A stretch of 64,000 nt of DNA from an uncultured Eubacteriales bacterium (GTDB lineage Bacteria > Bacillota > Clostridia > Lachnospirales > Lachnospiraceae), in the NCBI GenBank assembly GCA_900317515.1, contig ONHA01000001.1:123283-187282 (forward strand), given 5' to 3'. Shown in pieces: positions 42,379 to 59,792 of the stretch. Made by a program: the position numbers and the translations under genes. Every line of letters begins with the position of its first letter. The stretch's first letter is position 1. Below the pieces are notes generated by a model. The model worked only from the letters and a program-made list of their open reading frames with translations, searched no databases and was not told the origin of the DNA.

Positions 42379-44061
42379 TTACTCAAGAGTACCGTACATG
42401 ACGTACCAGTAACCGTACGGAGAATGCCAGGTGTTCTTAAGTTCCGGCTTCTGCAGCCAGAAATCGTTGTAGTAAGCAACCGGAGCCATGGCAGCATCCT
42501 TAAGGAGGACCTGCTCGGCCTCGTGAAGCTTGGTGTAATGCTCTTCGATATCAGCCGTTGTTCTTGCCTCATCGACCAGCTTGTCGAATTCCTCGCTGGA
42601 GTACTTGCCGTCATTGTTGCCGTTTGCGGTCTCGAGCAGGTTGATCATGTTGGACGGATCATCCCAGTCATAGACCCAGCCGTTGCGGGCGACATCGAAG
42701 TTGCCTGCACGTCTGTCAGCGGTAACAGTCTTCCACTCCTGGATATCGATCGTCATGTTGATGCCGAGCTCGCCCCAAGCGTTCTGCAGATACTCTGCAA
42801 CCGGCTTGTGGTAACCGGAATCGTTGGTCAGATACTTGATATCCGGGAAGCCCTCGCCGTTCGGATAACCGGCTTCCGCAAGAAGATCTTTTGCCTTCGC
42901 AAGGTCTTCCTCATAGCTTCCGGTCTTAAAGAAATCGCCGTAGGTCGCTGTGGTGACTTCCTCGAAGGAGGAGCCTTCCGCCGCGTCGGAGACGCCCGGG
43001 CCTACAAAGTTCTTAGCCGGAGAATAAGTGCCCTGCATGATCGTGCCGGCAACATGCTCTCTGTCGATCGCGAGAGACAGAGCTTCACGAACCAGCGGGT
43101 TGTCGAACGGAGCCTTCTGGCAGTTGAAGCTGACATAGTAGGTGCCCATGATCGGTTCGACATGGAATTCGTCATTGCCTTCAAGGGACGGGATCTCTTC
43201 GGTCGGAACGTCCTTGATCAGCTGGATCTCACCGTTCTGATAAGCTGTGTAAGCAGCGTTTGCATCCTCGATCAGATGCCAGACAATCTTATCAAATGTA
43301 ATCTTGTCTGCTTCCCAGTAGTTCGGGTTCTTTTCGAAGACGATCTTGTCACCGTCCGTGAACTCGGTCATGTAGTACGGGCCGCAGGTCACATAGGACT
43401 CCGGCTTCGTCCACCAGCCGTCGCCGTTCGCCTCGATGGTTGCCTGCTGAACCGGAACCATGACTGCGAAAGCGCAGATCTTGTCGAAGTAGGTGCAGGG
43501 AGCCTTCAGCTCGATAACAAACGTCTTGTCATCCGGAGCGGAGACAGCGAGCTTGTCAAGGTCGCCTTCAGACGCTTCTTCATAACCGACGATGTAGTTG
43601 AGAAGGTCGTAGCCGTAGGGAGCCGCAACAGCCGGATCCGCCACTCTCTTCCAGGAGTAGACAAAGTCATTGGCTGTAAGATCCGTGCCGTCAGACCACT
43701 TGAGGCCGTCTCTTAAGTGGAAGGTCCAGGTAAGGCCATCCTCGGATGTTTCCCAGGTTTCAGCGAGACCGGCAACGACGTTGTTCTTCTCGTCGAATTT
43801 GCAGAGGCCTTCAAACGCATGGATGATCATGTTTGCTCCGTCAACTGCAGAGTTGAGAGCCGGATCGATTGTCTCGGGAGACGGGCCGACCTGAATGTCA
43901 AGAACGTTCTCGGGAGCTGCGTTTTCAGCTGTGCTTTCGGTTTTGGAATCGGTTTCGGAAGTGCTGCCGGAGGAGGCCGGAGCGCTCGATCCGCCGCATG
44001 CGGCAAGGAAAAGAGAGCAGGTCATTACAGCAGCAAGGACGATAGAAAGCTTCTTCTTCAT
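42379..44061 (-). CDS. oppA: Oligopeptide ABC transporter substrate-binding lipoprotein
   Basis: A 560-residue solute-binding protein of family 5. The signal peptide ends in the lipobox LAAC, so it is anchored outside by a lipid on Cys near residue 22. A Ser/Thr/Glu-rich linker follows, then the binding domain with TIDPALNSAVDGANMIIHAF and REALSLAIDREHVAGTIM, both typical of peptide-binding OppA. It ends the oppBCDFA run, 172 bases after oppF. Binding proteins are usually made in excess, and a possible extra promoter is upstream. The bound peptide cannot be told. Confidence 0.92.
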   Translation of the reverse strand: MKKKLSIVLAAVMTCSLFLAACGGSSAPASSGSTSETDSKTESTAENAAPENVLDIQVGPSPETIDPALNSAVDGANMIIHAFEGLCKFDEKNNVVAGLAETWETSEDGLTWTFHLRDGLKWSDGTDLTANDFVYSWKRVADPAVAAPYGYDLLNYIVGYEEASEGDLDKLAVSAPDDKTFVIELKAPCTYFDKICAFAVMVPVQQATIEANGDGWWTKPESYVTCGPYYMTEFTDGDKIVFEKNPNYWEADKITFDKIVWHLIEDANAAYTAYQNGEIQLIKDVPTEEIPSLEGNDEFHVEPIMGTYYVSFNCQKAPFDNPLVREALSLAIDREHVAGTIMQGTYSPAKNFVGPGVSDAAEGSSFEEVTTATYGDFFKTGSYEEDLAKAKDLLAEAGYPNGEGFPDIKYLTNDSGYHKPVAEYLQNAWGELGINMTIDIQEWKTVTADRRAGNFDVARNGWVYDWDDPSNMINLLETANGNNDGKYSSEEFDKLVDEARTTADIEEHYTKLHEAEQVLLKDAAMAPVAYYNDFWLQKPELKNTWHSPYGYWYVMYGTLE

Positions 44062-44186
44062 TTTCCATTTCTCCTTTTTTGTTTTTTGTGCAAAGCAGCC
44101 GGATTGTCATAAAGGGAGATTTACTCTCCTTTTATGCAGATACCCCCAAAAATCGCATCCGGCACTTTGCAGGTATCTATGGTTGT

Positions 44187-44237
44187 CGGCCGTTTTACGG
44201 CCGGTACCATCATTAATTACAAAGACAAACTTGTCAA
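44187..44237 (-). promoter_or_regulatory. Possible internal promoter and leader hairpin of oppA
   Basis: TTGACA (44232-44237) overlaps the oppF stop, with AATGAT (44209-44214) 17 bases on. A CGGCCG/CGGCCG hairpin (44187-44203) and an AAAGGAGA/TCTCCCTTT hairpin (44111-44132) follow in the leader. The -10 is weak. Confidence 0.4.
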
Positions 44238-45217
44238 TTCACTTTGTCCAGATTGTGGCAGGCGGCGTAATGTCCTGAGCTTACCTCCCTGAATGCCGGC
44301 ATTTCCGCCGCGCACCGCTCGGTCGCGTAGCGGCAGCGGGTCCTGAACGGGCAGCCGCTGGGCGGATTGACCGGGCTCGGAACATCGCCCTGCAGAATGA
44401 TGCGCTTCGACGCGCGCGCTATCTTCGGATCCGCGACCGGCACCGCCGAGATCAGTGACTTCGTGTAGGGATGCAGAGAGTGGAAAATAAGTTCCGTGGC
44501 ATCCGCCATCTCCACGATATGTCCCAGATACATGACGCCGATCCGGCTGGAAATGTGATTGACGACAGACAGGTCATGCGCGATGAATAGATAGGTGAGG
44601 CCCAGCTCCTGCTGAAGCTCCTCGAACATATTGATGACCTGCGCCTGGATACTCACGTCCAGAGCGGAAACCGGTTCGTCGCACACGATGAATTCCGGCA
44701 TGACCGCCAGAGCCCGGGCGATACCGACACGCTGCCTCTGCCCGCCGGAGAACTCGTGCGGGAAGCGGTTCGCATGTTCCGAATTCAGTCCGACTTTGTT
44801 CAGAAGCTCAATGATGCGGTCTCTTCTCTCCTGTTTCGAGGAATACAGTTTGTGGATATCCATCGGCTCGCCCACGATATCTCCCACCGTCATGCGGGGA
44901 TCCAGGGAAGCGTACGGGTCCTGAAAGACGATCTGCATCTTTTTCCGGAAAGGCATCATGTTCGGCTGCTTTTTCCTCGTCCCGTCAAAGACGGTCTGGC
45001 CGTCATAGGTCACCTTGCCGGCCGTCGGCTCCGTCAGCCTGAGGATCGCGCGCCCGGTCGTCGTCTTGCCGCAGCCGGACTCCCCGACCAGACCGAACGT
45101 CTCTCCTTTCTTGATAAAAAAGCTGACCCCGTCTACCGCCTTTACGACATTTCGGGAACCGGCAACCGGGAAATACTGGCACAGATTTTCTACGTCAAGC
45201 AAATGTTTCTCTGCCAT
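44234..45217 (-). CDS. oppF: Oligopeptide ABC transporter ATPase OppF
   Basis: A 327-residue ATPase on the inner face of the membrane. Walker [13 protein letters not shown] is near residue 45, the signature [15 protein letters not shown] near 150, and Walker [14 protein letters not shown] follows. The C-terminal oligopeptide-transporter extension with [14 protein letters not shown] carries Cys residues that in this family can bind an iron-sulfur cluster. Its start and the oppD stop share one base (TAATG). Confidence 0.93.
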
Positions 45218-49558: not shown

Positions 49559-51331
49559 TCAGATTCTTATGATCGTCGTATTCATCCCGTACGTCCGGTA
49601 ATAACTCACATTCTTTGAGGCGTTCACCAGTATTCGGATGCCGTTTCCCGTTTCCGAACCGCCCGCCTCCATGCGCTCCGCAAAGCGCTTCAAATTAAAC
49701 GCCGGACCGCTGTCCCTCGCGCGTATAATCACGTCGCCCCTGTCGAGGACCACGCGGATATCCGCCGTCCTGATCGTCTGCCGGGGGCTGATCCCGTGCT
49801 CAATCACATTGGTTGTCAGTTCTTCCACACAAAGCCCGGCGAGGAAAATCTGCCTTTCAGCCAACTTGTGCCCGCGGCAAAACATCATGACCTGTTCGCT
49901 TGCCAACGCACAGTCTTCTCTCGTCCTGATCGGATAATCAATTACATCGCCGGGACCTGCACGAAAACTTTCATCAACTTCCAGATAGTCGGATGCGGGC
50001 GGGTATATTTTTCCGGTTCGCCTGACGTGCATCGCCCAGATGACGGCCAGCACCGCGATCTGGGACACCGGATATGCCAGAAACACCCCCCGAACGCCAA
50101 ACGGAATGACAAGCAGGCAGGCTGAAGCCGCGAGGGCGATCAGATTTGAGCCGGTTCCGAGATGTTGTGCTTCTTTAATTTTCCGAATTGCCTGAAGATA
50201 GCTGATTCTCGCTTGGATCAGGAAGGAGAACGGCACCGTACAGACGATGCAGAAAAATGCAAACACAAGAAGCTCCGCCGCAGCCTCGCTCTCTGTGAGA
50301 ATCACTGATAGAGGGATCGCACTGAACCCCAGCGCCGTGAGAACCAAAGCGGACAGCAGCAAGTCATAACGGTGTGCCAGCGCACCGATTGCTGCGAGAT
50401 CATCTCCGTTTTTCTCCCCGCAGGAGATCCCGGTCATGACGCCGACGGCCCCTGCGATTCCCTGCGCCAACACCAGAATAAAGTAATTCACGGTCGTATG
50501 TATGGACAGAACGCAGGCGCCGACCACACCGCCCGTAACGGAAACAACACTGATAAAAAGGACGGAACAGACCGCATCTGCCAAAGAGAGCGCTGCTTTC
50601 GGCGCCGACGCCGTGAAAATCTCTCCAAGCTCACCCGGGCGAATCCTGTCGAATCGAAGCCGGATGATACCTTTTCGTCTCACAAAATGCAGCATCGTCA
50701 CCAGAAAATAAACCGCAGCCGATGCGGAAGATGCGAGACCGATTCCGAAAAGCCCCCACCCAAAGCGCACGCTCATAAGATCGAGAAGGATATCCGTTAC
50801 GCAGCCGGCCGCGGAGGCGATGGTCACAAGTCTGCCACCGTTATCCAGTATCACAACGGGCGTCATGATGCAGAAGAGGACATACGGTATGATTTCAAAT
50901 GAAAGGCCGTACAGATACCGGGCGGCATACGGTCCGAGCTCCGCTGTCTTTCCTCTTGCGCCGAAGAGGAACACCATCTGCGGCACAAACAGGAAAGAAA
51001 GGACCGTCAACGCAGCAAGCACAATCGCAGAAAAATAAAATATTTGATTAAATTTGCGATTCATTCGTTCGATCTGACCGGCGCCAAGCTCTTTCGCGCA
51101 TATTGTCTGCACGCCTGCGGCGAGTCCGGCGGCGGGCATTTCCAGCAGATAGAAGAACGGTCCGGCGAGGGCGACGGCAGCAATCTCGGTCTCGCCGTAG
51201 AAGGCACAGACGATCACCTTGTCAATCAGTACCGCGAGCGTCTGGGTGAAAGCCGCTGCAAAGGCTGTCGCGAAGGCCAGAAGGAACATTCGTTTTTGGA
51301 TTTTGCTGATGTATATGCGGTGTCCGTTCAC
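49559..51331 (-). CDS. MATE efflux transporter fused to an RsbW-like ATPase domain
   Basis: A 590-residue two-part protein. Residues 1 to about 455 have the twelve membrane helices of a MATE/MOP exporter (GGVVGACVLSIHTTVNYF and LAQGIAGAVGVMTGISCGEK). Residues about 470-590 form a GHKL ATPase domain like RsbW/SpoIIAB: the N-box EELTTNVIEHG at 503, RARDSGPAFNL as G1, and GNGIRILVNAS as G2. The reading frame is continuous. MATE proteins export drugs or metabolites by ion exchange; RsbW-like domains bind ATP and partner proteins. The fusion implies that transport and a signalling switch are linked. The start is a GTG at 51331 with a GGGAG upstream. Confidence 0.85.
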   Translation of the reverse strand: MNGHRIYISKIQKRMFLLAFATAFAAAFTQTLAVLIDKVIVCAFYGETEIAAVALAGPFFYLLEMPAAGLAAGVQTICAKELGAGQIERMNRKFNQIFYFSAIVLAALTVLSFLFVPQMVFLFGARGKTAELGPYAARYLYGLSFEIIPYVLFCIMTPVVILDNGGRLVTIASAAGCVTDILLDLMSVRFGWGLFGIGLASSASAAVYFLVTMLHFVRRKGIIRLRFDRIRPGELGEIFTASAPKAALSLADAVCSVLFISVVSVTGGVVGACVLSIHTTVNYFILVLAQGIAGAVGVMTGISCGEKNGDDLAAIGALAHRYDLLLSALVLTALGFSAIPLSVILTESEAAAELLVFAFFCIVCTVPFSFLIQARISYLQAIRKIKEAQHLGTGSNLIALAASACLLVIPFGVRGVFLAYPVSQIAVLAVIWAMHVRRTGKIYPPASDYLEVDESFRAGPGDVIDYPIRTREDCALASEQVMMFCRGHKLAERQIFLAGLCVEELTTNVIEHGISPRQTIRTADIRVVLDRGDVIIRARDSGPAFNLKRFAERMEAGGSETGNGIRILVNASKNVSYYRTYGMNTTIIRI

Positions 51332-51389
51332 TGTTTTCTCCCTAAAACGTCGATTATCACGGCAAAAAGAAAAATCCGTTCCGGCACCC

Positions 51390-51707
51390 TCAGTGTCTGA
51401 TATAAAGCGTGCCGTCCATGATCCTCCTGGCGGTACGCTGAACGGCCACGCCCGGCACCTGTGCCTTGTTCATATCCGGTCCGTCTTTCACCACGGTCGG
51501 CACCATGGTCATGACGCCGCTCGGGTGGCCGATCCGAACCGTGGGCGTATCACCCGCCCCGGCTCCCAGCGTTTTCTGTATGATGGAGCCGTCCAGCTTT
51601 GCCGCGACGGAAATCGCGCCGGCCGCTGTCAGCGGGCAGGCGTCCCTTTTCAGTCGTTCCCCTCCCAGTCGCATGGTATTACATTTTAGTTTCGCGTTAC
51701 CATGCAT
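51390..51707 (-). pseudogene. C-terminal remnant of a PrpF-family isomerase
   Basis: A 105-codon open stretch with CPLTAAGAISVAAK, TVRIGHPSGVMTMVP and VQRTARRIMDGTLYIRH. These match the end of PrpF/methylaconitate isomerase-like proteins, which are near 390 residues, so at least 250 N-terminal residues are lost. The first ~13 codons lie in palindromic repeat DNA and look unrelated. I see no ribosome binding site. Its loss boundary coincides with the repeat array at 51670-52005. Confidence 0.6.
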
Positions 51708-52005
51708 TATTCATGGCATGAGGAAATTAAAACCGCACGCCATGAAAAAAACTTGCTTTTCAAAGTCCCGAAAGGTGAAAAGTTCATGTCCTGTCGTTTT
51801 TGAAGCCACACGCCATGAAAATATCTTGATTGACACGGCCTGAACCCATGCTGATTTCATGGTTTAAGACCCCATAAGCCTCACACCTTGAAAAATCCTG
51901 TTCCTCCACCGAAACCGGCGGCAAAACCTTCATGTTTTAAGGATACTTAAGCCTTATACCATGAAGATTTCATGGTATAAGCTGCACGAAGCCTCATCCC
52001 ATGAA
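51670..52005. repeat. Array of six 37-base palindrome-ended units with 3 or 36-base spacers
   Basis: Units begin at 51670, 51710, 51783, 51856, 51929 and 51969; each is exactly 37 bases. They are separated by 3, 36, 36, 36 and 3 bases. Five of the six have ends TTCATG and (C/T)(A/T)TGAA; the first has CGCATG and CATGCA. On the minus strand units read TTCATGGYRTGNGGCTT, then a variable middle, then ACCATGAA. Middles and spacers differ in sequence. The fifth and sixth units join in a perfect 13-base inverted repeat (51953-51965 with 51969-51981). The stretch lies between the PrpF remnant and the end of the ROCO gene and has no other gene. Confidence 0.75.
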
Positions 52006-52013
52006 CAGTAAGC

Positions 52014-55000
52014 TCACTCTCCCATCCGCACAACAAAATGATACACCGTCATCAGCGTTGCACCGCACGCATAATTGACTTCGAGGCACCGGATATACTG
52101 CCCGAGGCCGGTCCTCAACTCCCTGCTGCCGGTCACCGGATACGGTGACCCCGAGCCTGACCTTACATGTTCGTAGTAGCAATCGGCCTTCTCCGCAAAT
52201 GCCTCCTTGCCCCATTTCACATACGATACAAGGTAGAGGTATGGGAGCCCATGCGGATTATAGTGGTTAAGAAGCTTTGTAAGATGCCTGTCAAGATATT
52301 CCTTATCATTCTCCCCGAAACTGTCCATCCGCAGCGCTTCATAAATTGCAAGATCTTCCCCCGTCTTCCTGTCGCGGAACAGGATGTCAAGTTCACCGCT
52401 CTCATTCCGGTTCAGACTCCATCCGGCTCTCGTCTCATCCTTGCAGGTATACTCCGCCATTTCCATCATGTCACGGACACGGCCGTTATAATTGTTCTCC
52501 TTGAGATAGTCTTTATTGCCCTGAAGCTTTTCGAGCGCAATGGACAATTTTTGGCGCAGCAGCTCCTGCTTTTTTGCCTCGGGACTTACCGTGTAGGCGG
52601 CCAAAATGTCCCTGACACGGACTTTTCCTTTCCGCAGTTTTGAGAATACTTCATCTATTCCGTTTTCAAGGCTCCCTTCCAGCTCCTCCCGTTCAAATGC
52701 CTGTTCTTTCCCTTGCCACTTATAGTAGACGAACTCCACTGCATCAAGCCCCATATCACGGTTGATCGCGGCAACGGTCTCGCTCAGCATTTTGCTGTAT
52801 GCGGCTCCGGGGTAGAGGTCTTCATTTTTCCCTTTTACATGGATCTCAAGTTTATTCTGCCGGATGTATACCAGTGCCTGCCAGCCGCACGCTGCCTTAT
52901 CAAACACCGCGCCGGTTCGCCAGACCTGCTCCATCCTGATATCCTCGCCGAAACGCACCACGAGACGGTGGATAACATTGACCGGCAGATAATCATACTC
53001 AAAGCTTGTGTGCAGGGTATCACCACTCTTAAGAAAGTCCTTCACGAAGTCCCTCTCATCCGGGTCACAGAGCATCAGCATGAAGAAACGACCTTCATCG
53101 ATACGGTAAAGCAGGCCAAAGTTCTGAATAACGTCCAGTATATAGCGCACATGTGCCGGCTCGTAGCCGATGTCCTTCCTGACTCTTTTGACTGCTTCTT
53201 CCCCTTTTACATCTTCCCTAAAGAGATTGAGGCAGTCGTCCTCCGTCAGGATCCCGTTTTTGGCGTATCTGCGCCCGTTAAATACAAGAATATAGATTGC
53301 GTTCGTGAGCCACTCGGGCTTCAAAACCATGTAGTCGCTTTGAAATGCATTTTTCCGGCTGCAGAAGCACACGCCCGTATCCTGAAACAGTGAGATGATA
53401 CTGTCGAAAATATCTTTCCCGAGCTCAATCCCCTGCCCTGCGCATTTTTTCCTGAACGTCTCCGCCTGAATGAAATTCTCCGCCATCCCCTGGATCTCGT
53501 CCATGAGGTGTTTCCACTGGTTGGGAAATGAAACCCGCACCGATGCCATCCGGTCAATCTCGCGTTTGATGCTCTCCCTTACCTGTGCGTTAAAGTCCTC
53601 CGGCGAATCATTCAGGGCTGAAATCTTCAGAATATTTTCGGAGAGCGCAGGATAAAAGTCTCTAAGTCCGGTTTCATTCAGCGCCGCGTTACGATTCTGG
53701 TCCATCTGATTTATGATGATAAGAGCCGGCGCATCCTTGGCGAAGCTGCGGATGTTGTTGAGCCAGTACCAGGCCTGGCCGTCCTGCTTGTTGTCCCGGG
53801 CGTTGAGGAAAACCACATAAAGCGTCCGCTGCGTCAGGAACAGCCGGTGCATGGAGTGCAGGATCTCCTGTCCGCCGAAGTCCCAGAAATGGACAACGAT
53901 CTCATCCGCACCAATCCTGTACGTCTTGGTGTTGATGGAGATTCCCGGCGTGGAGTCCCCGTCAAAGTTCTCCGGTTTCTCCCCGTCAAGGAGCAATCGC
54001 TCGATCGTGAGGGATTTGCCGGCCTGGCCGTCACCCAGGAAGACCACCTTAACTTCATTGAGGGGCCTGCTGCCGTCTTTTTCTTTCTGCTCGCGATAAT
54101 ACTCACGTATTAGAGTACGGTCGTTTGAGAGGAAGATGCTAATGTCCTGGTTTTGTAATGTTGTGTGGTGGATATTAATACCCTCTTTTACGTACTCATC
54201 ACTAAAAGGTATATTTAAGTCAAGTAAAAATTCTGGAAGTTCCTTAAGTTCCAGATATTGTAAATCAAGATTTATAAGGTTCGTCAGGCCGCCTAGCGCA
54301 CTGATATCGCTCACCCGAGTCCTTCCTAAATCAAGATTTGTAAGGTTAGTCAGGCCACCCAGTGCGCTGATATCTTCCACCCTTGACGCTCTTAAATCAA
54401 GATTTGTAAGGTTTGTCAGGCCGCCTAGCGCACTGATATCGCTCACCCGAGTCCATCCTAAATCAAGATTTGTCAAGGAATTCAGGCCGCCTAGCGCACT
54501 GATATCGCTCACCCGAGTCCATCCTAAATCAAGATTTATCATCCCACTCAGCAAACTCATGCAGTTGGGAAGTTTACCTTCAATCATAATAAATCGATTC
54601 CATCGAACCGACTCCCAATGCCTTATCTTCTCTAAAATCTCCCGAGAAAAGATCTCTCCCTTATCAATGCGGCAAAGTACATCATAGAGGTCCTCATCCG
54701 TATCCAATCGTGCCTCTGATATAGGCAGAGCCTGCAAAAATCGATTCATTATCTCCGCAAATCTTCCCAGCCACGGAAGGACAATTTTCCTGTTCGCCTC
54801 ATACGGAAGGCGCTTCAATACTTCTTTGCTCTTCGCCGCCTCCGTAAGGCGCATAAGAAACCAGAGGTCCTCCGCCATCGTCTCACTATGCCAGGGGAGC
54901 TCAGTCAGATCAAAGCCGGCCGTCCCCGGAGCGTTGCTGTTCATTTCTTTCTGATTTTTTAAAAATGAAACCAGCTCCTCCTGATTTGGCGTCAGATCAA

Positions 55001-55112
55001 GAGTGTCGGCAGCACAGATCAGGAGATCCAGAAAACAGTCCGTTCCCTGGTTTGACATGACCAGCCGTTCATTTTTCGTCGATGATGAATTCACCCTTAT
55101 GATATTGCTCAT
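52014..55112 (-). CDS. LRR-Roc-COR (ROCO) GTPase with an unassigned C-terminal domain
   Basis: A 1032-residue multidomain protein. Residues 1-185 form a helical N-terminal part. Residues about 191-278 are four 22-residue leucine-rich repeats of the type LTNLDLGWTRVSDISALGGL. A Roc G domain follows: GDGQAGKS near 360, WDFGGQE near 412 and NQMD near 470. The COR dimerisation region covers about 500-830. The last 150 residues contain GELDILFRDRKTGEDLAIYE, with acidic residues that could be a degenerate nuclease-like fold, but I do not recognise it. ROCO proteins are GTP-dependent switches. Bacterial ones are mostly unexplained, and some relatives are suspected to act in defence. The start has GGGAGG upstream. 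Confidence 0.85.
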   Translation of the reverse strand: MSNIIRVNSSSTKNERLVMSNQGTDCFLDLLICAADTLDLTPNQEELVSFLKNQKEMNSNAPGTAGFDLTELPWHSETMAEDLWFLMRLTEAAKSKEVLKRLPYEANRKIVLPWLGRFAEIMNRFLQALPISEARLDTDEDLYDVLCRIDKGEIFSREILEKIRHWESVRWNRFIMIEGKLPNCMSLLSGMINLDLGWTRVSDISALGGLNSLTNLDLGWTRVSDISALGGLTNLTNLDLRASRVEDISALGGLTNLTNLDLGRTRVSDISALGGLTNLINLDLQYLELKELPEFLLDLNIPFSDEYVKEGINIHHTTLQNQDISIFLSNDRTLIREYYREQKEKDGSRPLNEVKVVFLGDGQAGKSLTIERLLLDGEKPENFDGDSTPGISINTKTYRIGADEIVVHFWDFGGQEILHSMHRLFLTQRTLYVVFLNARDNKQDGQAWYWLNNIRSFAKDAPALIIINQMDQNRNAALNETGLRDFYPALSENILKISALNDSPEDFNAQVRESIKREIDRMASVRVSFPNQWKHLMDEIQGMAENFIQAETFRKKCAGQGIELGKDIFDSIISLFQDTGVCFCSRKNAFQSDYMVLKPEWLTNAIYILVFNGRRYAKNGILTEDDCLNLFREDVKGEEAVKRVRKDIGYEPAHVRYILDVIQNFGLLYRIDEGRFFMLMLCDPDERDFVKDFLKSGDTLHTSFEYDYLPVNVIHRLVVRFGEDIRMEQVWRTGAVFDKAACGWQALVYIRQNKLEIHVKGKNEDLYPGAAYSKMLSETVAAINRDMGLDAVEFVYYKWQGKEQAFEREELEGSLENGIDEVFSKLRKGKVRVRDILAAYTVSPEAKKQELLRQKLSIALEKLQGNKDYLKENNYNGRVRDMMEMAEYTCKDETRAGWSLNRNESGELDILFRDRKTGEDLAIYEALRMDSFGENDKEYLDRHLTKLLNHYNPHGLPYLYLVSYVKWGKEAFAEKADCYYEHVRSGSGSPYPVTGSRELRTGLGQYIRCLEVNYACGATLMTVYHFVVRMGE
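54276..54539 (-). repeat. Four tandem 66-base repeats encoding the LRR units
   Basis: Copies at 54276-54341, 54342-54407, 54408-54473 and 54474-54539. Copies one, three and four are nearly identical at the DNA level; copy two is more diverged (RASRVEDI). The units are in frame, so slippage would change LRR number without a frameshift. Confidence 0.88.
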
Positions 55113-55896: not shown

Positions 55897-56697
55897 TCAT
55901 TCGGCTCTCCGCTGTTTTTTCTCTATAAATACCTCTTTGCCCGGCGCATCCGTTTCGAACCGGTCCGATGCGGTGCGGACGATCGCCGTGCCGTACGGAG
56001 CACTGATGAATTCGCTCAGGGCCGGATCATACAGCAACGCAGAATTGACTGTCCAAAGTTCCAGATTGGACGGATCATTGACATACTCTTCCGTTTCATC
56101 CCCAACGGCAAAATACCAGCCGGAATCTCTCTCCTGATCCGGTTCATCCCGCATCCCGTAGCCTATCTTCCATCCGCCTTCACGAACTTTTTTAGATACA
56201 ATGACTGTCTTTGGCAGAAGTTTCTTCCGTTCTATCATCGGCTCGAACGCTTCCTTTTGGGAAATGAACCGCTCCACTATCTCCCCGTCCGGCTCATCAT
56301 CACTGTTTAAAGCGGTGATATCCGCGTCCCATATTCTGCGGTCATCCGCATTCTCCGTAAGAAGCACCGCCAGCTTCAGCAGTTCGTCCGGAGTTGCCTC
56401 CACCTGTCTTTCGAACAGGACAGGCTTCGCGTGCCCGTTGTCCCCGTATACATAGACCGAAAGAGCTCCGTCGGTGTAAAGCATTGCTTTGACGGCGCCG
56501 AGATTTTCCGCGTCATTATAGAAAATGAAAAAACACGGAAGGTGTTCGTTCACATACCAGTCGAACGCGGTGCCGTTTTTTCCGTTCATAAAATAAACTG
56601 CCCCGTTATTCTCCAGGTTGTCCGGCTTGATATCGGGCAGTGCTGCGTGCATGCACTCGAGCATGATATTTTGTGTCTCATAAAGTATCTTATTCAT
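55897..56697 (-). CDS. DUF2185 / Imm33-like protein
   Basis: A 266-residue protein. The C-terminal 110 residues have VSKKVREGGWKIGYGMRDEP, DSGWYFAVGDETEEYVNDPS and LWTVNSALLYDPAL, the hallmark of DUF2185, listed as immunity protein family Imm33. The first 150 residues are not recognised; they contain DWYVNEHLPCFFIFYND. Imm33 domains are linked to polymorphic toxin systems, yet no toxin gene is near. It could be an orphan immunity gene or a metabolic protein sharing the domain. Confidence 0.72.
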   Translation of the reverse strand: MNKILYETQNIMLECMHAALPDIKPDNLENNGAVYFMNGKNGTAFDWYVNEHLPCFFIFYNDAENLGAVKAMLYTDGALSVYVYGDNGHAKPVLFERQVEATPDELLKLAVLLTENADDRRIWDADITALNSDDEPDGEIVERFISQKEAFEPMIERKKLLPKTVIVSKKVREGGWKIGYGMRDEPDQERDSGWYFAVGDETEEYVNDPSNLELWTVNSALLYDPALSEFISAPYGTAIVRTASDRFETDAPGKEVFIEKKQRRAE

Positions 56698-58218: not shown

Positions 58219-58386
58219 ATGGAAAAGACCATTTATGACAAAAACAACGGTTTGTGGTACGAGCTTCGGGGCGATTATTATATCCCCTGCCTGACAGTAC
58301 CGGCTCATGAAGACAGACCAATCGGCATCTGGGGGCAGCGGCATCTGCGATACATCAAACACAAGATCCGCAATGGGAGGTGCTGA
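58219..58386 (+). pseudogene. Truncated TnpV-like transposon protein
   Basis: The frame opens with an AGGAGG and ATG and reads GDYYIPCLTVPAHEDRPIG then IWGQRHLRYIK, which match TnpV proteins of Tn4451-type elements (usually about 100-120 residues). It stops after 55 codons; the usual C-terminal part is not found in any frame downstream. This is a remnant of a mobile element, with no resolvase or ends recognised here. Confidence 0.65.
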
Positions 58387-58454
58387 AGGCAGTGGCTCAT
58401 TTCCACAGAGGCTATGAGGCGGGAATACGGGCAGCCGAAAAGGGGAAGATAATT

Positions 58455-59792
58455 ATGCTGAATAATATCCGCGCATCTAAAAGTGCATATATGCTTGCCT
58501 ATGTGCTTGAACTGGTCTTTTATTGCATTCGGGGGCATTACATTTATGTGGAGACAGGTCTCTTTGGGCTCTCCGGAAATACGATTACATATGTATTCCA
58601 TGTTGCTGGCTCGCTATTAATCATGCTCTGCTGGAGCCCACGGTTCAAACCTCTCATATTGCTTTCTTCAGGCTTATTTGCAGCAGGCTTTATTCCGGCG
58701 CTGTTTCTCCCAGAGGGGGTACTGCGCCTGATTTTTGCCTGCGCCGGAATGTTCGGACTTGGGGGCGCTGTAAGTGCCTGCCGCTGTGGATACGCCTTTG
58801 TTTCCAACAATTCAGAGCGGCTCACCGGTATTTCTTTGATGGTCATACTTGTGGCGATCATACATAGAACCGCTTGGGCGGGGACGGAAAACGTTTTCAC
58901 CAATCAGATACTGCCGATTATCGTGATCGCACTTCTCATTTTCTGCCTGCTCCGCTTTAAAGAAGAAGATTTTGAAGTGCGGGAAGAAACCGGTCCCGAA
59001 GATAAAAAGGGCCTTTACTGGGCGTTTGCTTTCTTCACAGCATATTTTGCCATTGACGGTTTTATTTATGATCTTGCAAACACTTCCATAGAGACGAAGC
59101 CCACATTTATGTTTGCAGGGCTTATTATAGCGGGGATCATGCTCTTCATTATGCTTGGAAAGCTTAAGCTGAATGTGCAGCATGTATGGGATTTGTTTTT
59201 TGTACTTCTGCTTTTCGGTACTGTTTTGGTGGTTATCCGGCCGCATTTTACCGTGCCCGGTGTGCAGAATCTCGTACTCGGCATGAGCGTGATCGGCTGG
59301 CCGCTTTGTATCTATATGCTGTCCTGCGCCCTGAACCGGTTTGCCAGCTACAGGCTCCTGAAACGGTGTACCCTTATATTCGCGCTGCTGTCTCCCTTTA
59401 CCAGCATGATGGACTACTTTTTTGAAGATCTGTTCCCAAACTACGTTTCAGTAGCAGCCCTCATCTACTTTGCGATCATCATTGCCTTGTATGTTTTGAC
59501 GATTCCGCTAAGCAGCAGATACCTGTTCTCACAGCTCTGGCTGAACGATATGAACAAGGCTGAGATGCAGAAAGCAGTTAATGAAAAACTGGATCAGTTT
59601 GAGCCATATCAACTGACGCCTCGTCAAAAAGAAGTGGCCCTTTTGCTTCTTGAAGGAAAGACCCGCCGCCAGATTTCAGCAGAGCTGGGCCTTTCAGAAT
59701 CCACGGTCAAGCTTCATGTCTCGGAGCTTTATAAAAGGCTTGGAATAAACAGCAGGTTTGAGCTTTTTAAGCTGTTTGACGTAAAGAAATAG
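58455..59792 (+). CDS. LuxR-type regulator with a multi-pass membrane N-terminal domain
   Basis: A 445-residue protein. Residues 1 to about 370 are highly hydrophobic with ten to twelve membrane segments, resembling a transporter-like sensor. The C-terminal 65 residues are a LuxR helix-turn-helix: LTPRQKEVALLLLEGKTRRQ, then ISAELGLSESTVKLHVSELY. Such membrane LuxR proteins are common in Clostridia and Coriobacteria and probably sense an outside signal and bind DNA from the membrane. The ATG at 58455 follows AGGGGA; an upstream in-frame start at 58380 lies in remnant DNA. It may control the lipoprotein gene next to it. Confidence 0.85.
   Translation: MLNNIRASKSAYMLAYVLELVFYCIRGHYIYVETGLFGLSGNTITYVFHVAGSLLIMLCWSPRFKPLILLSSGLFAAGFIPALFLPEGVLRLIFACAGMFGLGGAVSACRCGYAFVSNNSERLTGISLMVILVAIIHRTAWAGTENVFTNQILPIIVIALLIFCLLRFKEEDFEVREETGPEDKKGLYWAFAFFTAYFAIDGFIYDLANTSIETKPTFMFAGLIIAGIMLFIMLGKLKLNVQHVWDLFFVLLLFGTVLVVIRPHFTVPGVQNLVLGMSVIGWPLCIYMLSCALNRFASYRLLKRCTLIFALLSPFTSMMDYFFEDLFPNYVSVAALIYFAIIIALYVLTIPLSSRYLFSQLWLNDMNKAEMQKAVNEKLDQFEPYQLTPRQKEVALLLLEGKTRRQISAELGLSESTVKLHVSELYKRLGINSRFELFKLFDVKK

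Follow-up and report, generated by a model that had tools for sequence, protein, structure and literature searches.

In type III toxin–antitoxin systems, the structured RNA repeats of ToxI precede toxN in gene order. At the other end of genes, clustered hairpins downstream of the stop codon have been put forward as intrinsic terminators that can dispense with a U tract; the available text of PMC8355165 describes clusters in which hairpins stand less than 15 bases apart, mostly in twos, with many-hairpin clusters rare and no mutual likeness needed. According to a proposal in the available text of PMC8794818, RNA hairpins can arise and persist through template switching between inverted repeats, with no need for selection on every change. 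Here we describe an array of related 37-base stem-loop units directly behind a ROCO gene, in a 64-kb window (the whole stretch of DNA that was analysed; Table 1). The array is real, and a local cluster of duplicated hairpins is a more likely explanation for it than a new CRISPR-like system.

Table 1. Features of the array and of the two genes that flank it
Feature	Position	Strand	Length or basis
prpF-type gene, 3′ remnant	51390-51641	-	homology to intact relative
Unit U1, most diverged stem-loop	51670-51706	-	37 bases
Unit U2, stem-loop	51710-51746	-	37 bases
Linker U2-U3	51747-51782	no strand	36 bases
Unit U3, stem-loop	51783-51819	-	37 bases
Linker U3-U4	51820-51855	no strand	36 bases
Unit U4, stem-loop, plus-strand end CTTGAA	51856-51892	-	37 bases
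Linker U4-U5	51893-51928	no strand	36 bases
Unit U5, stem-loop, end in 13-base inverted repeat with start of U6	51929-51965	-	37 bases
Unit U6, stem-loop closest to ROCO stop codon	51969-52005	-	37 bases
ROCO gene, array neighbour (leucine-rich repeats, Roc, COR-A, COR-B; 1032 aa)	52014-55112	-	Pfam domains

The layout given in a preliminary description of this DNA, six units of 37 bases with gaps of 3, 36, 36, 36 and 3, was confirmed at 51670-52005. Its account of the unit ends also held, with exact TTCATG...CATGAA ends in U2, U3, U5 and U6, the altered end of U4, and U1 as a variant of equal length; the inverted repeat at the U5/U6 junction is perfect and encloses a loop of 3 bases. The distance from U6 to the ROCO stop codon had been put at 9 bases and is 8 by our count (52006-52013). 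The pattern TTCATGN{22,28}CATGAA matches four times in the window (U2, U3, U5 and U6) and nowhere outside the array, while shuffled sequences gave a mean of 0.05 matches and reached four in 0 of 100 cases; across the organism's own genome it occurs at seven places, four of them in the array. U1 scores 36 bits against a covariance model of the units, having itself been part of the set from which the model was built. Pairwise identity among the six units is 43-76%, and the array was not reported by Tandem Repeats Finder at score 30 because its copies are too diverged. A plain hairpin count does not single it out either, being a coarse measure: 4 in 350 bases at the array, 4 at window position 43965 and 4 in a leucine-rich-repeat gene region (L018). 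The hairpins at 43965-44256, which lie between transporter genes, have unrelated sequences, and one is terminator-like. The array stands out by its common sequence, constant unit length and regular spacing, not by the number of hairpins.

On the minus strand, each unit forms an imperfect stem-loop with a 14-pair stem and a 9-base loop. The 84 stem cells comprise 65 Watson-Crick pairs, 7 G-U, 1 A-C and 11 other combinations, i.e., 86% are paired; a shift of the partner by one to three columns lowers this to 34-46%. Both sides have changed in 5 of the 14 stem pairs, and the covariation score of the six units exceeds that of all 500 shuffles, the set being a few related sequences and the shuffles ignoring relatedness. 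Without U1 the score is 0.200 (shuffled mean 0.110), which 5 of 500 shuffles reach, and the number of pairs changed on both sides is reached by 43 of 500, indicating that much of the signal is carried by U1. On the ROCO strand, the 5′ arm and the first loop bases are best conserved; the loops are 11-56% identical between units, and the stems are less diverged than the loops.

Several observations hint that the relevant molecule is RNA read from the coding strand of ROCO. Stem cells pair in 79% of cases on the plus strand, compared with 86% on the minus strand; the fold z of the region is -6.8 for minus-strand RNA and -3.6 for the plus strand (for each, 0 of 100 shuffles folded as well); and G-U cells outnumber A-C cells 7 to 1 (two-sided p 0.07, with U1 holding 4 of these 8). 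Strand-biased mutation could, however, also cause the G-U excess and the other strand hints. All six units form hairpins on the ROCO strand in nested folds, and in the minimum-energy fold they pair with one another as well as internally. Among the three options raised in the preliminary description, an array of RNA hairpins therefore fits best, given the changes on both sides of stems, the pairing and folding on the ROCO strand and the suggestive G-U excess; a decayed palindromic element, another of the three, may be the origin of the array.

The remaining option, a protein-binding array, would make each unit a dyad-symmetric DNA site, with TTCATG ends around a variable core, to which a dimeric regulator or a recombinase of the tyrosine type would bind, as at the scar of a cassette insertion. 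It would account for the conserved outer arms around a variable 9-base centre, for a period of 73 bases (which we equate with about seven helical turns) and for the location at a recombination junction, the end of the prpF homology described below. It is weakened because pairing also tends to be retained, with joint changes, at the inner stem positions, something that a simple operator would not require; moreover, the own genome has no copies elsewhere, and no recombinase was found beside the array among the Pfam-scanned proteins. We consider this option unlikely.

The linkers were compared by the use of single-base shuffles. The U2-U3 linker is 47% identical to the U3-U4 linker (p 0.003) and 42% identical to the U4-U5 linker (p 0.02), whereas the U3-U4 and U4-U5 linkers are 25% identical, with no signal (p 0.58). 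Two of the three pairs are thus more alike than shuffled sequences, suggesting that at least part of the array is a 73-base tandem repeat, in which the linkers appear to have drifted further than the stems. Computed folds show that the linkers themselves can form weaker hairpins.

On its other side the array borders a broken gene. The prpF remnant is the last fifth of the gene (profile positions 297-370 of 371), and its homology to an intact relative, which is present in 1 of 41 other genomes of the genus, ends at 51641, 28 bases before U1. Relatives of the NUDIX protein encoded in the window occur in 10 other genomes. Gene order was read around four of them (77-80% identity) and around the single prpF relative in the genus; no other of 17 window ORFs was matched there, which left no way to demonstrate an empty site. 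Pfam recognized the ROCO gene, the prpF remnant, a MatE-HATPase gene, NUDIX and others among the neighbours. The MatE-HATPase gene (49559-51331, minus strand) joins a MatE transporter and a HATPase_c_2 (histidine-kinase-like ATPase) domain in one ORF, and has relatives of 22-24% identity over nearly the full length in three other genomes of the genus. A protein with an Imm33 immunity-type domain is encoded two genes from ROCO (55897-56697, minus strand). Neither a terminator (U-tailed ones included) in the array nor a promoter in 51000-52400 was found by a simple scan, which placed one terminator-like site within the ROCO gene, with 1.3 expected by chance.

We tentatively favour a local tandem array, in which a 73-base stem-loop module was duplicated behind ROCO and would form a 3′-end hairpin cluster in the RNA. 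Repeated duplication of a module with one 37-base stem-loop would have taken place immediately downstream of the ROCO stop codon, where the prpF gene lost its 5′ part, after which linkers and loops would have drifted while stems stayed mostly paired. Judging by its position, the array would lie in the ROCO 3′ untranslated region, which, read on the ROCO strand, would hold six hairpins also able to pair mutually. Their likeliest job would be to slow or end transcription or to block 3′ exonucleases, separating ROCO from the downstream genes; for this role we draw on the position and on the proposal of U-tract-free termination by hairpin clusters in the available text of PMC8355165. Stem pairing, covariation, the minus-strand fold, the short distance to the stop codon, the likeness of linkers and the nearby prpF junction count for this explanation. 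Counting against it are the empty terminator and promoter scan, the weaker covariation without U1, the p value of the G-U excess, the 36-base gaps and the number of units (compared with the clusters in PMC8355165) and the array-free ROCO relatives (see below).

The main rival, a serious one that we place not far behind and regard as possible, is that the array is a neutral satellite that has no function. Slippage or unequal crossing-over would have multiplied a quasi-palindrome at the prpF deletion scar, and template switching during replication would have kept its arms alike. The detection of the array in one genome only, its divergence, its irregular ends and the adjacent truncated gene all agree with this, as does the template-switch proposal in the available text of PMC8794818. 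It accounts less readily for a length of exactly 37 bases in six of six units, for stems less diverged than loops, and for the strand hints, though strand-biased mutation could yield the latter. The array is a compact natural example of a stem-loop apparently multiplied in place, regular but with diverged copies, and offers a way to examine what preserves stems, selection on RNA or errors of replication.

The ROCO protein is related to bacterial Roco structures. At E 1e-3 the whole protein finds matches in 18 of 42 genomes of the genus (own included), but the Roc-COR part is matched by only three besides the own genome, the others matching the leucine-rich repeats alone; at E 1e-30 there are matches in 7 of 392 genomes of the order (own included). 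Identity is 36-55% in the matched parts within the genus and 26-35% in the order. One genus relative (G052) carries a tandem pair of ROCO genes (L026, 756-6096, minus strand). Downstream of 11 ROCO copies from nine genomes we counted 0 to 2 hairpins, compared with 4 at the array, and found no such array. In two of these 11 regions, L028 and L116, folding is unusually good (z -4.6 and -5.3, 60 shuffles), owing to hairpins unlike each other and unlike the array units. Nothing, then, shows that ROCO needs the array, and recurrence does not support a functional tie between the two. ROCO was not found in viral contigs and had no match in PADLOC. Our literature search found no paper on ROCO proteins with a COR domain and anti-phage activity, which does not prove absence from print.

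The C-terminal domain of the ROCO protein (52017-52556, minus strand) matches ORF333 of the P2-EC5 prophage segment, which is of the P2 family (30% over 160 aa, E 2e-8). An alignment of the window domain, three genus relatives and ORF333 has the invariant columns G-E-x-D and, 14 residues on, I-x-E. The latter is followed by N-K in L026 and L028, whose sequences share only about 20% identity with the window domain; the window protein, L027 and ORF333 have A-L. Against PD-(D/E)XK, ORF333 gave a sub-threshold match (13.3 bits, cut-off 22.3, E 0.08) and the window domain none; a PDB sequence search gave nothing useful. As a lead, the domain possibly has a nuclease-like PD-(D/E)XK-type fold, of which the window copy may lack the lysine.

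This domain bears on the idea that the array encodes a non-coding RNA of a defence or toxin–antitoxin module, whose transcript would be cut to units that bind a protein, perhaps ROCO, like type III antitoxins or CRISPR RNAs. The number of repeats and the unit length recall type III antitoxins, and the relationship to ORF333 of a prophage segment points the same way, but the 11 ROCO relatives lack the array, Rfam has no match at gathering score, the units are too unlike (43-76% identity) and PADLOC does not recognize ROCO. We consider such a module very improbable. The same low standing applies to its more specific form, a genome-specific structured RNA that would be co-transcribed with ROCO, cut to unit-length hairpins with variable loops, and bound or sensed by the ROCO protein with its perhaps PD-(D/E)XK-related C-terminal domain. 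If true, a ROCO-bound structured RNA would amount to an RNA-protein module of undescribed kind, acquired recently, and the tie to the protein would bear on the role of bacterial ROCO proteins.

The array is known from one place in what was searched. In the own genome the covariance model recovered each of the six units (two on both strands), with every match inside the array; the scatter of single copies across the genome that the preliminary description had named as adverse was not seen. The recurrence next to ROCO or other genes that it had named as support was not found either: at E 1e-3, 0 of 41 other genomes of the genus matched, and the 391 other genomes of the order held no array. Three of the latter had one match each, a lone hairpin in unrelated sequence, two of them terminator-like with T-rich tails and one without a clear T run. 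Both searches used stricter filters and scored candidates in part (in the order, 17 per genome among the candidates listed), and thus single weak units could be missed, though the own array was found under equal limits. A 17-base consensus with one mismatch allowed had 19 matches in the 41 other genus genomes, compared with 23 for a backward control. An exact pattern scan of a collection of genomes from 84,980 species returned 26 isolated unit-like matches and no array, where about 11 would be expected by chance if base use is assumed equal; a single Pseudoalteromonas sequence accounts for three of the 26, and another match (L063) is a lone good hairpin. Viral contigs had no match to the stricter pattern and a single unit-like match to the looser one. 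No second unit lies within about 400 bases of this match or of the 26. Array and flank DNA did not match plasmids or phages, and Rfam gave two chance-level matches far below gathering score and none in the window at that score. Since the collections may lack entries for the window's own genome or for genomes very close to it, and metagenomes lay outside the scan, near relatives with the array may exist. Literature searches for a palindromic hairpin array with ROCO (only unrelated papers) and for cas-less degenerate CRISPR-like arrays (none found) do not prove absence from print.

These distributions bear on whether the array is what remains of a family of miniature mobile palindromes, of the REP/BIME type or another. 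Its size and stem-loop form fit the REP definitions in the available texts of PMC12306157 and PMC2817692 and, like the REP/BIME elements that accompany RAYT transposases there, its units are short, imperfect intergenic palindromes in a cluster. Unlike them, the array has no dispersed copies and sits at one place only, U2-U6 share one orientation whereas BIMEs alternate, and the units have no GT(A/G)G heads. GTAG is absent from both strands and GTGG from the plus strand; GTGG occurs twice on the minus strand, inside U3 and in a linker, and not at unit starts. The own genome (94% complete) gave no match to the Y1 transposase family (PF01797), which was matched in 5 of 14 control genomes. We regard such an origin as largely refuted and highly unlikely.

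The CRISPR-like geometry noted earlier, with partly palindromic 37-base units and 36-base gaps, is there, yet the likeness looks coincidental: the units are only 43-76% identical where CRISPR repeats are nearly identical, as had been remarked, and where a CRISPR array would have unrelated spacers of much the same size throughout, there are gaps of 3 at both ends and just three gaps of 36, these partly alike. As to the statement that no cas gene is present, PADLOC found no cas effector among 25 proteins of 26.7-63.3 kb, but two weak partial matches, to CARF3--CARF (E 4.2e-6 over 58 residues) and Csa3 (E 2.9e-4 over 24 residues). The former lies near the end of a 470-aa protein at 58380-59792 (plus strand). 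The array is a warning that CRISPR-like spacing can arise outside CRISPR.

The ToxI RNAs of type III toxin–antitoxin systems (PMC8860590) likewise consist of a small number of structured repeats in tandem, next to a single protein gene. They form pseudoknots, however, whereas the array units are plain stem-loops as predicted from nested folds only; the array copies are much more diverged; and the array sits behind the ROCO gene and not before its protein gene. No endoribonuclease family of the ToxN/CptN/TenpN type was found among the Pfam-scanned neighbours. With the hairpin clusters in the available text of PMC8355165 the array shares several hairpins right behind a stop codon (8 bases), on the coding strand and without a U tract; it differs from them in that its six units are related to each other and span 336 bases, with linkers of 36 bases, so that two of its gaps (3 bases) are within the spacing of less than 15 bases described there and three (36 bases) exceed it.
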